DNA from: Thiolapillus brandeum
GTDB taxonomy: Bacteria > Pseudomonadota > Gammaproteobacteria > Chromatiales > Chromatiaceae
Assembly (NCBI RefSeq): GCF_000828615.1
Contig: NZ_AP012273.1
Location: 2,957,001-3,021,000 of the forward strand
Direction: 5' to 3'
Length of the DNA: 64,000 nt
The notes beneath the pieces were generated by a model. It ran no database searches and was not told the origin of the DNA. It saw nothing but the letters and a program-made list of their open reading frames with translations. The number at the start of each line of letters is the position of its first letter. Positions within the stretch are counted from its first letter, which is position 1. Positions 25,263 through 39,150 of this stretch are shown in pieces. The position numbers and the translations under genes were made by a program.

Positions 25263-30253
<4,991 letters not shown>

Positions 30254-30283
30254 GAGCAACCTGGATTGATGAACCATTCAGAT

Positions 30284-30749: not shown

Positions 30750-31709
30750 TCAGGCGGAATCCGTCAGTCCGTGCATCTGCTGCAAGCCGGCCTCCAACAG
30801 TTCCCGCACACGCTCCGGTTTGGTGTGATAGCCGGAGCGCCTGGTGGTGTGCTGGCGTATCACCAGCACCTCTACGCCATCCTGATTGCGCAACTCCACG
30901 ACCATGCCCTCCGGGGGATCAAAGGCTCTCGCCAACGCCCGTATGCCATTGCCTGGCCGCGCCACCAACACCACATAGAAATAGGGATAGGACTTTCCCT
31001 GCACCGCGTTGATGACCACCTGACCGTACAGCCCCAGAAAACCCTCCGGCCCATGGGCAGGCTCGATCTTTATCTTGATATCATCCGGCAACTTGCTGTC
31101 CTTGCCCTTGAGCAACATGAGTACCTCCACCTTGTCACCCCGGCTTTCAGGGTCCACTTCCCGCAGGACCCGGGACAGAACATCACTCTTGATCATCAGG
31201 CCGGGCAGACGAAGTACGCGCCGGGTTCCGGTGAACCAGTGAGGCAGAAACAGGATTGCCATATCCACAGGAATGGCGTCCAGCAACCGATACTGGCGGG
31301 ACTCAGTGAATCCCACATGCATCAGCATCAACAGGAAAACCAACAGAACGAAGGTGAATATGCCCCAGCCATTGGTGATATCAATAAAACTACGATCCCA
31401 GCGCCGTACTTTCCTGTCGAAATCCTTCAGTTCAGCAAGGCGGCTGCGTTCCACCTTCTGCCACTGGCTGGAGGGGCTGAAACCGGCAAATTCCACCCGG
31501 TTGTCATAGCCCTTGACCAGCAACAGGGCATTCCCGGCAATGAGGGGAAATACACCGGCAAACACCTCGCCGGAGTACCACTGCAGCAGCAACCCCAACA
31601 GGATCAGGCCGAAAGCCATGAGCATACGCCGGGAATAGTTCATACCGGGCAAAACCCAGAACACTACCGCGTCCCGGACATTGCTGACGCTGGAGGCTTC
31701 GTGTTTCAT
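30750..31709 (-). CDS. Four-helix membrane protein of the radical SAM operon
   Basis: A 319-residue protein. Two hydrophobic pairs (about residues 27-70 and 112-155) form four predicted membrane helices, followed by a cytoplasmic C-terminal domain (about 170-319) with VEVLMLLKGKDSKLPDDIKI and ending VRELLEAGLQQMHGLTD. I do not recognise the family. Its start overlaps the radical SAM stop by four bases, so the genes are translationally coupled and very likely work together, for example in holding, exporting or using the modified product. Confidence 0.72.
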   Translation of the reverse strand: MKHEASSVSNVRDAVVFWVLPGMNYSRRMLMAFGLILLGLLLQWYSGEVFAGVFPLIAGNALLLVKGYDNRVEFAGFSPSSQWQKVERSRLAELKDFDRKVRRWDRSFIDITNGWGIFTFVLLVFLLMLMHVGFTESRQYRLLDAIPVDMAILFLPHWFTGTRRVLRLPGLMIKSDVLSRVLREVDPESRGDKVEVLMLLKGKDSKLPDDIKIKIEPAHGPEGFLGLYGQVVINAVQGKSYPYFYVVLVARPGNGIRALARAFDPPEGMVVELRNQDGVEVLVIRQHTTRRSGYHTKPERVRELLEAGLQQMHGLTDSA

Positions 31710-33109
31710 TGCTCAGCCTCCGGTTCCGGTCTGACGTAACCCAGAGCTTGCGCGGGAGCAAACCCGTTGTGCGCTTCCAGCTCATCGAATCCGAGTTCCC
31801 GCCAGTACAGGGGGCAGGCGCCGTTGCAGATATCGAACTGGCTGCAGTCCCGGCACTGGGGATGGGCCAGCGCCTTGTCCCGGTACCCCCTGGCCTTATC
31901 CCCATTCCATACATCCACCAGATTGTTCTCCAGCAGGCTGCCCACTTCATCATCATAGGATGCGCAGGGAATCACCGAGCCATTGGGAGCCACGGATATC
32001 AACCCGTCACAGGCGCTGCAACCATGATTTCCAAGGCCCGCCGGAATCGGATTGAACAGGCACATGGGGGTCGGGGAATACCAGAGAAATTCCACGCCAT
32101 GCTCCTTGCTCCGGGCCTGGATCTTTTCCAGCCAGGCGCCGATTTCCGAATAGCGCACGATAAGATCCGGGTGTACTACGGCGCTGCCCGTGGGCACCAG
32201 CAGGTTCATGCTGAAGCGCTCATTGTCCAGAACCTGGCGCACGAAGCGCGGCATGTCCGGCATCTCGTGGACATTCATGCGATTGATGGTGGTGTTGGTA
32301 TGCACACGGATACCCACGGTTTTCAGATGCCCCACCGCTGCTACGGTCCTGTCGAAGGACGACTGGCCCTGGGTGACCAGGTTGTGAATCTCCGCGCTGG
32401 TGCCTTCCAGGCTGACCTGAGCAGAATCCAGACCGGCATCCTTGAGCCGCTGGGCCAGCAAGGCATCGATGCGTGTACCGTTGGTAATGAGGTTGACGCG
32501 CATGCCCAACTCTTTGGCGTAAGCAATCAGATCCGGCAACTGCTTGTGCAGGGTGGGCTCACCCCCGGTAAAGCTCACGGAAGGCACCCGGCCCTCGTGC
32601 CAAAGCTTGTGCAGCACGGTCTCGATCTCTCTGACCGTCATCACCTTCTCATCATTTACCGGCTGGGTGGTGCAGTTGCATCCCGCATAACAGAACACAC
32701 AACGCAGGTTGCACTTGTAGGTGATGGCCACCTCGGAAAGAATGGGCAGCTCGGAAAAATGCCGGTCGAAGACCTCCACTTCCACGCCGGGATGACCCGA
32801 GTCGGCGCTGATGCTGCCCTCCAGAAACCCCCGCACCCCATGCAGAAACAAAGCCACCTGCTCCAGTTTACTGCCATCGCCGCCCAGCCCCCGGATGACA
32901 CCGGCGATCCTGCCGCCATCGAGAAGGAACTTGAGGATCTGAGCGCCCTGGGGGTTGAGTTTCTGCGCCTGATTGGGACGCTTGATGAGAATGTTGTCCT
33001 CGGTGCGCACATAGATATAGGGACCGACATTGGCAATGAACTCATCCACCCAGGAAAGATCAGGACCCTCAGCAGGCACCCTGCGGCGGGACAGCAGTTT
33101 GCTCAGCAT
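31706..33109 (-). CDS. Radical SAM/SPASM peptide-modifying enzyme with PqqD-like N-terminus
   Basis: The 467-residue protein (start set at 33109) begins with a PqqD-like region, NILIKRPNQAQKLNPQG then ILKFLLDGGRI (about 39-70), of the type that recognises leader peptides. The radical SAM core has CNLRCVFC (Cys 133, 137, 140) for the 4Fe-4S cluster and TGGEPTLH (about 181-188). The C-terminus is a SPASM domain with Cys 350, 364, 367, 382, 419, 422, 428 and 432, able to hold auxiliary clusters. This is the architecture of RiPP maturases that build thioether or C-C bonds. The gene follows the CHSA-tail protein by 115 bp and overlaps the next gene, so the tail is the obvious candidate substrate. 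Confidence 0.85.
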   Translation of the reverse strand: MLSKLLSRRRVPAEGPDLSWVDEFIANVGPYIYVRTEDNILIKRPNQAQKLNPQGAQILKFLLDGGRIAGVIRGLGGDGSKLEQVALFLHGVRGFLEGSISADSGHPGVEVEVFDRHFSELPILSEVAITYKCNLRCVFCYAGCNCTTQPVNDEKVMTVREIETVLHKLWHEGRVPSVSFTGGEPTLHKQLPDLIAYAKELGMRVNLITNGTRIDALLAQRLKDAGLDSAQVSLEGTSAEIHNLVTQGQSSFDRTVAAVGHLKTVGIRVHTNTTINRMNVHEMPDMPRFVRQVLDNERFSMNLLVPTGSAVVHPDLIVRYSEIGAWLEKIQARSKEHGVEFLWYSPTPMCLFNPIPAGLGNHGCSACDGLISVAPNGSVIPCASYDDEVGSLLENNLVDVWNGDKARGYRDKALAHPQCRDCSQFDICNGACPLYWRELGFDELEAHNGFAPAQALGYVRPEPEAEQ

Positions 33110-33224
33110 GACAAAACCTCCCCCGCAGGCCAGGCCACAGCCCGGCACAATGGCCGTTCAATACCGCCCTGGCGCCCCCTTGTCACGGAAATCCATTGCT
33201 TCCATCTCATGTTGCCCCCTTTCA

Positions 33225-34826
33225 TCAATGCGACCCTCCACTCACGCAAGCCGAATGGCAGGCACTGTGACAGGCGGAATGGCAGGCTGAGTGACAAGCC
33301 GAATGACAGGCCGAGTGACAGGCGTCATGACAGACGTTCAGTTCCAGGGCGATGTCCGTATCCAGAGGGCCATGGATGATATGATCCACAGTAACCGGCA
33401 TATCCGTGGCTAGGCGGGCCGGATCATTGTCATAGTTCCAGTGCCGCTGGTAATAAGGATGCTGGTTGTGATACCAGAAATACCAGTTTATGGCATCCGA
33501 TTGCTCTTTGATGGCCGCCCCATCACCCGCCTGGTGGATAAAGTCGTTAACCTTCTTGCGGTAGTAATCCTGAGTGGCTTCGACATCCGCATCCCAGGCT
33601 TTGAGCTGCACCTTCTTGACTGCCGTGTTCATCAAATCCTCCAGCTCTGCCTGGGAAAGCTCGCCATCATCCCGCAGGGCCTCCCAGAACATGCGCTCGT
33701 ATTCATCCAGCTCATGAAGATTGGGGGGATTGAGCACCTTCACCTTCAGAGGTGATTCGGACTCGATCTCCACGAAACCTTCCAGCACCATGGAATTGAG
33801 CATGGAAGAAACAATGACCTTGAAAGGAATCTCCAGGTAGAAAGCCGCCTCCAGTGAGGTCAGATCCTTGCACACCTTGCCGGGCTTGCGGAACTCGGAA
33901 AGAATCAGCTTGGGCGGTGTCCAGTCCAGATTCTCCCAGCGAATCTCGTCCAGTCCTTCCCTGGCCTTGAGCATGGAACGCTGCTTGCCTTTGACCACAC
34001 CAAAAAACGCCCCCACCACGGCCAGCCCCAGGACCAGCAGCAGGGAATTCGGACTCGAAGCAGAAGCCCGCCTTTGCGTGGGCAGGGTTGAAACCGCCTG
34101 GGCAGGCAACGCATTGAGCTGGAACCAGTCGGCAGGCATGTAGAACTGCACTTGCATATGGAAGCGGTTGCCGGGATTGTTCTTGTGGAAAACCAGCAGC
34201 AGGCGGTTGTTGGGACCACGCTGGTAATCGATGAGATATTTCTCGTTCACCCAGGGCTCGGTGAGAATCAGCCGTTCCGTATCCACCACGCTGCGTGGAT
34301 TGACGGATTCATCCGGTAACCGGTAAGGCGTGAGTATCTTAAGCGTGTAATGATCCTGACGAGAGGCTTCATCCCACTGCACCGGCGCCCAGTTGAAGAA
34401 CACCAGTTCCCGGCCATCTTCCGCCGTGGTCGGCCCCAGATAACCCGCAGCATGAAAGTCTGTCCTGAAGGGCAGGTTGAAGGTAACACTCTGTCCGGCA
34501 GGCACACCCTGGCCATCGGCCAGCAGGACATCCCACTTGCCTCCCGAGAGCTTGCGCAGATCGAGCCGATACTGGTTGCCGCGGCTGTCCACGGCGCCGG
34601 CCTGATCCACGGCCATGGCCACCTTCAGACGGTCGTTGCCCTGGAAATAGAAACCATGCATCTGTCCGGAAGCAACCTTCCACTGAACCTGATATAAAAC
34701 CACCGCGCTGCCATCTGCCTTGAGATCCACGATGGTTTCGACGAAATGAATATTCCCCTTGCCGGCCTGAACCCCCATAGGGAGCAGCAAAAGAAACAGC
34801 AGAAGCAGTCGCCATACAGAAAGCAT
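33225..34826 (-). CDS. DUF2207-like membrane protein ending in a (CHSA)n cysteine-rich tail
   Basis: The protein has 533 residues; start set at 34826 (MLSVWRLLLLFLLLLPMG). Residues 1-21 are a signal peptide. Residues 22-255 form a beta-rich ectodomain of the DUF2207 kind (WKVASGQMHGFYFQG; LVFFNWAPVQWDE). A membrane helix lies at about 259-279, then a cytoplasmic helical region to about 495. The last 35 residues contain eight cysteines spaced every four residues: CHDA once, CHSA six times, then CVSGGSH. With N-terminus outside and C-terminus inside, the tail would be cytoplasmic, where the radical SAM enzyme encoded next could modify it. Some DUF2207-type proteins have Cys/Gly-rich low-complexity tails, as I recall. 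Confidence 0.8.
   Translation of the reverse strand: MLSVWRLLLLFLLLLPMGVQAGKGNIHFVETIVDLKADGSAVVLYQVQWKVASGQMHGFYFQGNDRLKVAMAVDQAGAVDSRGNQYRLDLRKLSGGKWDVLLADGQGVPAGQSVTFNLPFRTDFHAAGYLGPTTAEDGRELVFFNWAPVQWDEASRQDHYTLKILTPYRLPDESVNPRSVVDTERLILTEPWVNEKYLIDYQRGPNNRLLLVFHKNNPGNRFHMQVQFYMPADWFQLNALPAQAVSTLPTQRRASASSPNSLLLVLGLAVVGAFFGVVKGKQRSMLKAREGLDEIRWENLDWTPPKLILSEFRKPGKVCKDLTSLEAAFYLEIPFKVIVSSMLNSMVLEGFVEIESESPLKVKVLNPPNLHELDEYERMFWEALRDDGELSQAELEDLMNTAVKKVQLKAWDADVEATQDYYRKKVNDFIHQAGDGAAIKEQSDAINWYFWYHNQHPYYQRHWNYDNDPARLATDMPVTVDHIIHGPLDTDIALELNVCHDACHSACHSACHSACHSACHSACHSACVSGGSH
33237..33332 (-). repeat. Twelve-base tandem repeat encoding CHSA units
   Basis: Eight consecutive 12-base units encode Cys-x-x-x steps: CHDA, six CHSA, CVSG. 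Codons vary between units, so the amino-acid repeat has been kept despite synonymous drift rather than being a fresh DNA slippage product. Confidence 0.85.
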
Positions 34827-37167: not shown

Positions 37168-39150
37168 TTATTCCTGCATGGCCGGTGTTTCGATTTTATG
37201 TACCGCCGGATCAAACTCCTCGATCTTGTCCAGCAGGGCGGCGGCCCTGACCATTTGGCTCTTCACCGCTTCCCGGGTGCTGCCCTGCATCCGGGCATAG
37301 CGGCTCAGGGCCGTGTACCGGGCCAGCTCGGGATGCGCCTCGATGGCCTTGCGGTGATCCGCCATGGAAGGAATCCGGGCTTCCCGGGTTTTCTTCTGCA
37401 CCACGGTAACGTCCTCGAAGCCAATACGCAGGCCATAGACGATATAGTCGAATGCCACACTGGAAGAACAGTTATCCGAACCTTTCACCACCAACTCGCT
37501 GGTGGATTTTTTCTCCAGATATAACAGGCAGGGCTCACCTATGGGCGTCAAGTGCGCAGTAAGCCCGATATCCGGATTGGTCACCCACTTGAAGGTCTCG
37601 CCCAGAGCAATATGCGCCTCGCCATTGACCAGTTTGGCGCTGCCGCGGGTGTAGGTGGCTACCTCATCACCTTCAGGAGCCGTATAGGCAATGACCTCAT
37701 CCGGGTTTTCCGGGTGATTCTGAACGAAGTTTACCGTGCCCGTGCCATAGATCTTGTAGGTGGAATAACCCACCCGGGCCCGGATGCCGCTGTCCAAATC
37801 TCCGAAATACCCACCCCCGGTGTTGCCATAAGCCGAAATGCCATAATCACCATTGCCCACAAAGGCGTAGCCACTGCTATCCAAATCCTTGAAATAGCCA
37901 CCCGTACCATTGCCGTAAGCCATAATGCCGTCCTCCCCAGAACCAACATACGCGTAGCCGCTGTTGTTCAAATCCTTAAAATAGCCACCCCAATAGTTAC
38001 CTTCGGCATGAATGCCTTCATGGCCATAGCCAACATATGCATAACCGGTGCCGTCAGCATCCTTGAAATAGCCGCCCGTGGTGTTGCCGTAAGCCACAAT
38101 ACCATTGTCCCCAGAACCTACATACGCGTAGCCGCTGTCGTTGGCATCCCTGAAAAAGCCCCCCCAACTATTACCTAAGGCATGAACACCTTCATTAATA
38201 TAGCCAACATAGGCATAGCCGCTGCTGTTCGAGTCCTCGAAATAGCCACCGGCATTTTTTCCAATGCCCTCCACGCCATAGCTAGTACCACCCGTACTCG
38301 TATTGGTGCCCTTGAGAATCCCCCCGGATGCCACACCGCTCAGAGCCAGGGGGACAGCCACGTTCAAGGTCGCATCGCCACTGGCCGCGCCGCCGTTTAG
38401 GCCGGTGCCTGCAATCACAGCGGTGATATCGCCCCCGGCATTGTCATCAGTCTCGCAGGTCACAGTGCCATCTGCGGCAATGGCCCGGATGCTGCTGCCC
38501 ACCGCGCAACTGCTGCTCACCCGGCGTTGCAAGTAGCTGGTATCGGCACTGAGAGTCACGTCGCCCGACGCACCGCCGCCCGACAGGCCCGTGCCGGCGT
38601 TCACGGCAGTGATGTCGCCACCACTGCCCGCATCATCCGCCGCGCAGGCCCAGGCGCTGCCGTTCCACTTGGCCACCTGGCCGCTGGCGCAGCTCAAAGA
38701 GGCCAGGGTGTCGTTGTCGCCGTCCAGCAGGTCGGCGGGAATCCCCACGAAGTTATCCCAGTCCAGGTAATAGCTGCTGTCCTGGCCATCCAGAAGATCC
38801 GCATCCAGACCGGAACCGGCACCATCGAGCTGGTTATACAGGGTTTCCTCCAGGCCTCTTACGAAGAACACTGCCATCTGGGCCCGGGTGACATTGTCCT
38901 CGGGGCAGTAGTTGTTGGCATCACAACCAGAGGTGATGCCCAGGTTGGCAAATTCCTCGATATAACCGCAGGCCCAGTGGGTCGCCGGCACGTCGTCGAA
39001 CAGGGTGCCGGTACAGACATAGGCTGCCGCTTCGACAAAGGCCGCGTAGTCCGGTGATGGGGGTTCATTGGCCCAAACTGACCCATTGCTTATGGCCGTG
39101 ACCATGAGCAGAGGCAGAAGACGTTTCTTGAAATGATTTCTTGTTTGCAT
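37168..39150 (-). CDS. Secreted SLH-domain repeat protein, paralogue 1
   Basis: A 660-residue secreted protein. A signal peptide (about 1-27) is followed by an SLH-like domain (about 45-100; [35 protein letters not shown]). A linker ([20 protein letters not shown]) and two GGDITAV-type repeats come next. Eight units of about 20 residues of the type [20 protein letters not shown] lie at about 280-470. The C-terminal region has [19 protein letters not shown] and an Ala/Arg-rich helical end. The architecture resembles S-layer or appendage proteins with collar and beta-helix repeats. Its C-terminal 180 residues are nearly identical to those of the paralogue at 39388. Confidence 0.75.

Follow-up and report, generated by a model that had tools for sequence, protein, structure and literature searches.

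In the 64,000-nucleotide stretch of the Thiolapillus brandeum genome analysed here (the window), the gene for a membrane protein that ends in a regular cysteine repeat is followed by genes for a radical SAM/SPASM enzyme and for a further membrane protein (Table 1). This raises the question of whether the enzyme modifies the repeat tail and, if so, what it makes of it. The sequence-only reading had proposed that the enzyme modifies a full-size membrane protein at its tail, and this proposal is strongly supported by the conservation and co-occurrence described below. Taken as a whole, the locus is best explained as a substrate-maturase pair in which the tail would be crosslinked unit by unit in the cytoplasm, a reading to which we give a probability of roughly 55%.

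Table 1. Features of the locus and of sister loci (positions are those of the window unless a locus is named).
Feature	Position	Strand	Basis or context
Tail-bearing membrane protein, 533 aa	33225..34826	minus	sequence, homologues, model
Tail, C-[HxAC]7-VSGGSH, residues 499-533	33228..33332	minus	sequence
Putative tail maturase, 467 aa, radical SAM/SPASM enzyme with PqqD-like (RRE) domain at the N-terminus	31706..33109	minus	PF04055, PF13186
Coupled membrane protein, 319 aa, four predicted membrane helices and C-terminal alpha/beta domain	30750..31709	minus	ATGA overlap, model
ZnuA-like metal-binding and SCO1/SenC domain fusion	28820-30277	minus	
Secreted-looking protein, 660 aa, many imperfect repeats	37168-39150	minus	
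(Cys-Ala)n-GGGR membrane protein	L143:5642-7327	plus	beside sister enzyme and methyltransferase
(Cys-Ala)n-GGGR membrane protein	L144:5318-6997	plus	beside sister enzyme and methyltransferase
(Cys-Ala)n-GGGR membrane protein	L145:9523-11424	minus	beside sister enzyme and methyltransferase
(Cys-Ala)n-GGGR membrane protein	L146:8713-10212	minus	beside sister enzyme and methyltransferase

The tail protein starts at the ATG at 34826, and its last 35 residues consist of CHDA, six CHSA units and CVSGGSH. The eight Cys residues (499, 503, 507, 511, 515, 519, 523 and 527) thus follow a strict four-residue spacing, as had been noticed from the sequence alone; when the Cys-rich last 60 residues were shuffled 100,000 times, an eight-Cys run occurred 0 times and the longest run was six. 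A reading of the tail as CXXXCH heme-binding sites was set aside, since units packed this closely leave no room for a heme at each. The protein scored under the curated cut-offs of both TIGR04222 (near_uncomplex; 18.8 bits against 43) and TIGR04117 (Syntroph_Cxxx; 9.6 bits against 50), and had no match to DUF2207 (PF09972) at E<=0.1. At this same threshold, TIGR04222 matched 11 of 53 homologues (best 2.7e-7) and DUF2207, a distant relative, matched 24 (best 8e-6).

The predicted layout comprises a signal peptide, a beta-sandwich ectodomain (residues 22-234), one membrane helix (~260-292), a cytoplasmic winged-helix region and the C-terminal tail. In the structure model (mean pLDDT 82, the tail part being without a confident model), the ectodomain resembles ribophorin I of oligosaccharyltransferase and the N-domain of M1 aminopeptidases (Z 15.6, 2.6 A, 179 residues). 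The occurrence in a bacterial protein (33228-34826, minus strand) of an ectodomain like that of a eukaryotic oligosaccharyltransferase subunit or an aminopeptidase N-domain is an observation in its own right. After the membrane helix, the model continues with helical domains predicted to be cytoplasmic, and in most homologues examined the positive charge is higher on the C-terminal side of the helix. Because of the signal peptide, the ectodomain, the single membrane helix and the positive-inside charge, the tail probably lies on the cytoplasmic side of the membrane, and not at the surface as had been suggested, which would place it in the same compartment as the enzyme.

In the enzyme, the radical SAM core (PF04055, E 6.4e-29) carries a CxxxCxxC motif at Cys 133/137/140 that is invariant across 54 sequences, and the SPASM domain (PF13186, E 7.2e-9) is also evident, so the radical SAM and SPASM Cys sets picked out by the sequence-only reading were both confirmed. 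The PqqD-like N-terminus holds for the family, with PF05402 (PqqD) matching 13 of 33 homologous N-termini (best E 2.1e-9), but the window enzyme taken alone falls below threshold. In a sequence search of this RRE-like region against the PDB, the RRE protein TfuB1 was matched at a merely suggestive E of 0.069; HIV protease constructs, which made up the top rows, were regarded as spurious. All NCBIfam models listed score far under their cut-offs, and hence none of the curated models shown covers the enzyme.

The ATG of the third gene overlaps the stop codon of the enzyme gene as ATGA, and the structure model of its product (pLDDT 89) shows four membrane helices together with a C-terminal domain, in accordance with the coupled four-helix protein described earlier. 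This domain has a T3S-chaperone/YbjN-like fold (Z 8.0, 114 residues), a weak likeness at the level of common chance arrangements, and a Foldseek fold search of the protein gave no match below E 0.001. The third gene was not found in four Asgard genomes tested, and the core of the system is therefore the tail protein and the enzyme. In the window's genus, the ZnuA-SCO1 fusion lies downstream of these genes, and the window further encodes the 660 aa repeat protein (Table 1). Beyond the three genes, no neighbour family common across phyla was found, and the loci do not share a nearby peptidase, exporter or released peptide. For this reason, and with a 533 aa membrane protein as the substrate, the system is not a RiPP in the strict sense.

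A scan for homologues with one genome per species gave 59 loci, which span over a dozen bacterial phyla or groups of similar rank as well as Thor- and Lokiarchaeota. The bacterial groups include Pseudomonadota, Calditrichota, Cloacimonadota, Aminicenantes, Acidobacteria, Planctomycetota, Bacteroidota, Victivallales, Chloroflexi, Omnitrophota, Auribacterota, Clostridia, Elusimicrobia, Hydrogenedentota, Spirochaetota and Nitrospirota. The tail was present in every tail-protein homologue not cut by a contig end, and the enzyme gene adjoins the tail gene in 57 of the 59 loci, in agreement with the co-occurrence anticipated by the sequence-only reading. The two others are L028, on a truncated contig, and L017, in whose genome the enzyme and the third gene are both present but sit elsewhere, unlinked to the tail; apart from L017, the third gene occurs wherever a bacterial contig extends to it.

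Over the whole protein, median column identity to the window member is 33%, as compared with ~93% in the tail. The codons of the tail are fully diverged among homologues, both Ser codon blocks being used; with codons shuffled and residues kept, it is the protein sequence that selection keeps, and by this comparison the tail is under protein-level purifying selection. No other part of this otherwise fast-evolving protein is kept nearly so strictly, and the tail must therefore do something precise.

Tail and enzyme were found together in the same 8 of 15 genomes of the window's genus, the other 7 having neither. Among 199 Planctomycetota genomes, ten encode the enzyme (E <= 1e-60) and the same ten the tail protein. 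The system is nonetheless sparse and patchy, since only the window's own genome among 398 from Pseudomonadota has the enzyme at E <= 1e-50. In 148 Asgard genomes, a near-full close-type enzyme was found in 24, the tail in 26 and both in 23. A 25th genome (G402) has an enzyme fragment at a contig end, and the tails of G402, G354 and G360 are on short contigs that end nearby. Asgard genome G393 (L140:7856-10195, minus strand) has an intact (HxAC)n tail and no enzyme of this family; the first 276 residues of its tail protein are unlike those of relatives, and the locus has N runs. Homologues lacking the tail in the same operon were looked for and no clear case was found, the nearest being Asgard genome G372 (L139:1588-3229, minus strand), where the tail gene stops after 82 residues next to recombinase-like ORFs and the enzyme is intact. 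G393 and G372 both count against the substrate-maturase reading. Two Planctomycetota matches to the pattern only (G249 and G163, with CHAA and CHFA runs) were set aside as other repeats without a matching enzyme, and a tail match in the related genome G016 (L009) came from the antisense strand of a repeat within an unrelated gene. Because the tail has hardly changed between marine bacteria and Asgard archaea and is rarely seen without this enzyme, the enzyme very probably modifies the (HxAC)n tail.

The repeat array stands as first described, but CHSA is not its unit. In the Asgard tails, HxAC is kept in 81 of 81 His-units, a Cys directly precedes the unit in 63 of 81, and the VS or VC spacers that split the arrays fall after a Cys and never within HxAC; H-x-A-C, and not C-H-S-A, is therefore the true conserved unit. 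Bacterial tails mostly contain eight or nine Cys residues (ten in a few), with HSAC the commonest unit and HDAC preferred at the tail start. Across units, H and A are nearly invariant and x is S, D, N, G, A, Q or T; the His of the first unit is rarely replaced, and its replacements include Tyr. This pattern would suit three-residue cyclophanes in which His C2 is bonded to the Ala C-beta of the same H-x-A; the Cys thiols would then stay free and form a ladder for metal binding. The same bond is reported for HaaB and ScaB on His-Ala-Ala motifs (PMC11002830). However, a His-Ala bond alone leaves the invariant Cys unexplained, and the enzyme is not specially close to a curated family of that kind, so it is our second choice of chemistry and an unlikely one.

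A second tail code bears on the same point. Another 31 enzyme matches, one set per Asgard genome, were more remote (E ~1e-70 to 1e-101; partial genes account for the weakest), and 22 of the 26 such loci examined include an adjoining membrane protein of the same general kind, which ends in a Gly-rich segment followed by CACACACACACAGGGR or CACACAGCACACAGGGR, i.e. a (Cys-Ala)n tail. At the other four of these loci, no adjoining (CA)n tail gene was found, which likewise counts against the substrate-maturase reading. The distant enzymes form their own clade (support 1.0), sister to the CHxA-type enzymes, and a SAM-dependent methyltransferase is encoded by the next gene in both sister loci scanned. 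Sister loci L175 and L176 carry the enzyme and a methyltransferase-like gene with no adjoining (CA)n tail gene. As the (CA)n tails contain no His, a His-Ala bond cannot be the chemistry common to both codes; they do offer Ala at i+3 from Cys. Tail type tracks enzyme subfamily, as predicted by a substrate-enzyme relation. At about even odds, the two sets would belong to a widespread group of bacterial and Asgard membrane proteins whose permanent cytoplasmic tails are made into polycyclic rods by dedicated radical SAM enzymes. Such a group would use two or more tail codes, with one enzyme subfamily for (HxAC)n and another for (CA)n, the latter joined by a methyltransferase.

The tail could also be a plain metal site (e.g. 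for Cu(I), Zn or an Fe-S cluster), the enzyme acting elsewhere or on cluster chemistry only. Cys at i and i+4 with His at i+1 would suit metal binding, and the ZnuA-SCO1 fusion points to metal handling nearby. However, this gene is not conserved outside the window's genus, and a plain metal site needs neither one-to-one pairing with a SPASM enzyme that bears a peptide-recognition domain nor a tail switch that follows the enzyme subfamily, which makes this explanation decidedly improbable.

For crosslinking of the tail, a thioether from Cys to the residue at i+3 is our first, though tentative, choice of chemistry, because in bacterial tails that residue is Ala in 367 of 435 cases (Gly in 52 and Ser in 10, these two adding 62) and because of a change in the SPASM region. 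There, the window enzyme has eight Cys residues, of which seven are invariant and C367 nearly so. The seven canonical SPASM Cys residues common to the CHxA-type and CA-type enzymes are all invariant, and the last C-terminal SPASM Cys is missing from the CHxA-type and kept in the CA-type. Free iron on a SPASM cluster can be bound by a substrate Cys, as in CteB (PMC8326336), and the absent Cys may similarly leave an open iron site for a substrate thiolate. This favours thioether chemistry only weakly, since C367, found in 91% of CHxA-type enzymes, may fill the vacant ligand site. The VS and VC spacers of the Asgard tails also count against the thioether geometry, as they break the Cys-to-Ala(i+3) spacing.

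The SPASM family includes the formylglycine-forming anSME, and Cys oxidation to formylglycine, C-alpha epimerisation or desulfurisation would be further options, which sequence alone cannot separate. To our knowledge, however, epimerases usually lack full SPASM domains, and the formylglycine sites that we know of have a motif different from that of the tail; modification of this sort is accordingly rated as quite unlikely.

In the preferred reading of a substrate-maturase pair, the chemistry and cellular role that we infer would be as follows. On insertion into the membrane, the ectodomain of the tail protein would face outward and the (HxAC)n tail would stay in the cytoplasm, as the sequence and model suggest. 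The enzyme would dock via its PqqD-like domain and work along the tail repeat by repeat, as suggested by co-occurrence and conservation, with one crosslink per unit via the Cys sulfur as the likeliest chemistry. Such crosslinking would turn the tail into a short, rigid rod, rich in Cys and His and anchored at the cytoplasmic side of the membrane, where it would probably serve an envelope-spanning protein in metal binding or in redox chemistry or sensing. As a guess, the third gene product may hold or read the tail in bacteria. If this is true, radical SAM maturation would not stop at small secreted peptides but reach a permanent portion of an integral membrane protein, and would do so in both bacteria and Asgard archaea. 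Its outcome would be a structural or metal-binding device built into the membrane instead of a secreted peptide. The two tail types and two enzyme clades further provide a natural experiment on substrate recognition.

A literature search for the tail motif, DUF2207 with radical SAM enzymes, and CXXX-repeat maturases, which covered few subscription journals, found no description of a SPASM enzyme paired with a permanent, predicted cytoplasmic membrane-protein tail, in two codes. The closest known analogues of the system are the radical SAM RiPP maturases and the MNIO/TIGR04222 proteins. Like the putative tail maturase, the ranthipeptide maturase PapB of freyrasin is a radical SAM enzyme acting on evenly spaced motifs, forming several thioethers on Cys-X3-Asp (PMC9413430), but its substrate is a short peptide with Asp/Glu acceptors, whereas the tail here belongs to an integral membrane protein and most of its units have no acidic acceptor. 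The triceptide enzymes HaaB and ScaB join His to an Ala two residues on, the same three-residue pattern as in each tail unit, but act on small precursor peptides, and the review (PMC11002830) mentions no repeated Cys ladder in connection with them. The TIGR04117 target, going by its NCBIfam name, shares a four-residue Cys spacing and a radical SAM partner, but the model has 98 positions and describes a small target. In the TIGR04222/MNIO theme, a Cys-tailed membrane protein is encoded beside an MNIO proposed to modify the tail (PMC12452194), and the likeness extends to a C-terminal, Cys-bearing low-complexity tail, a neighbouring metalloenzyme and remote sequence similarity. That theme, however, joins an MNIO to a Ser/Gly-rich tail predicted to be periplasmic, whereas here a radical SAM/SPASM enzyme is paired with a strict HxAC tail predicted to be cytoplasmic.
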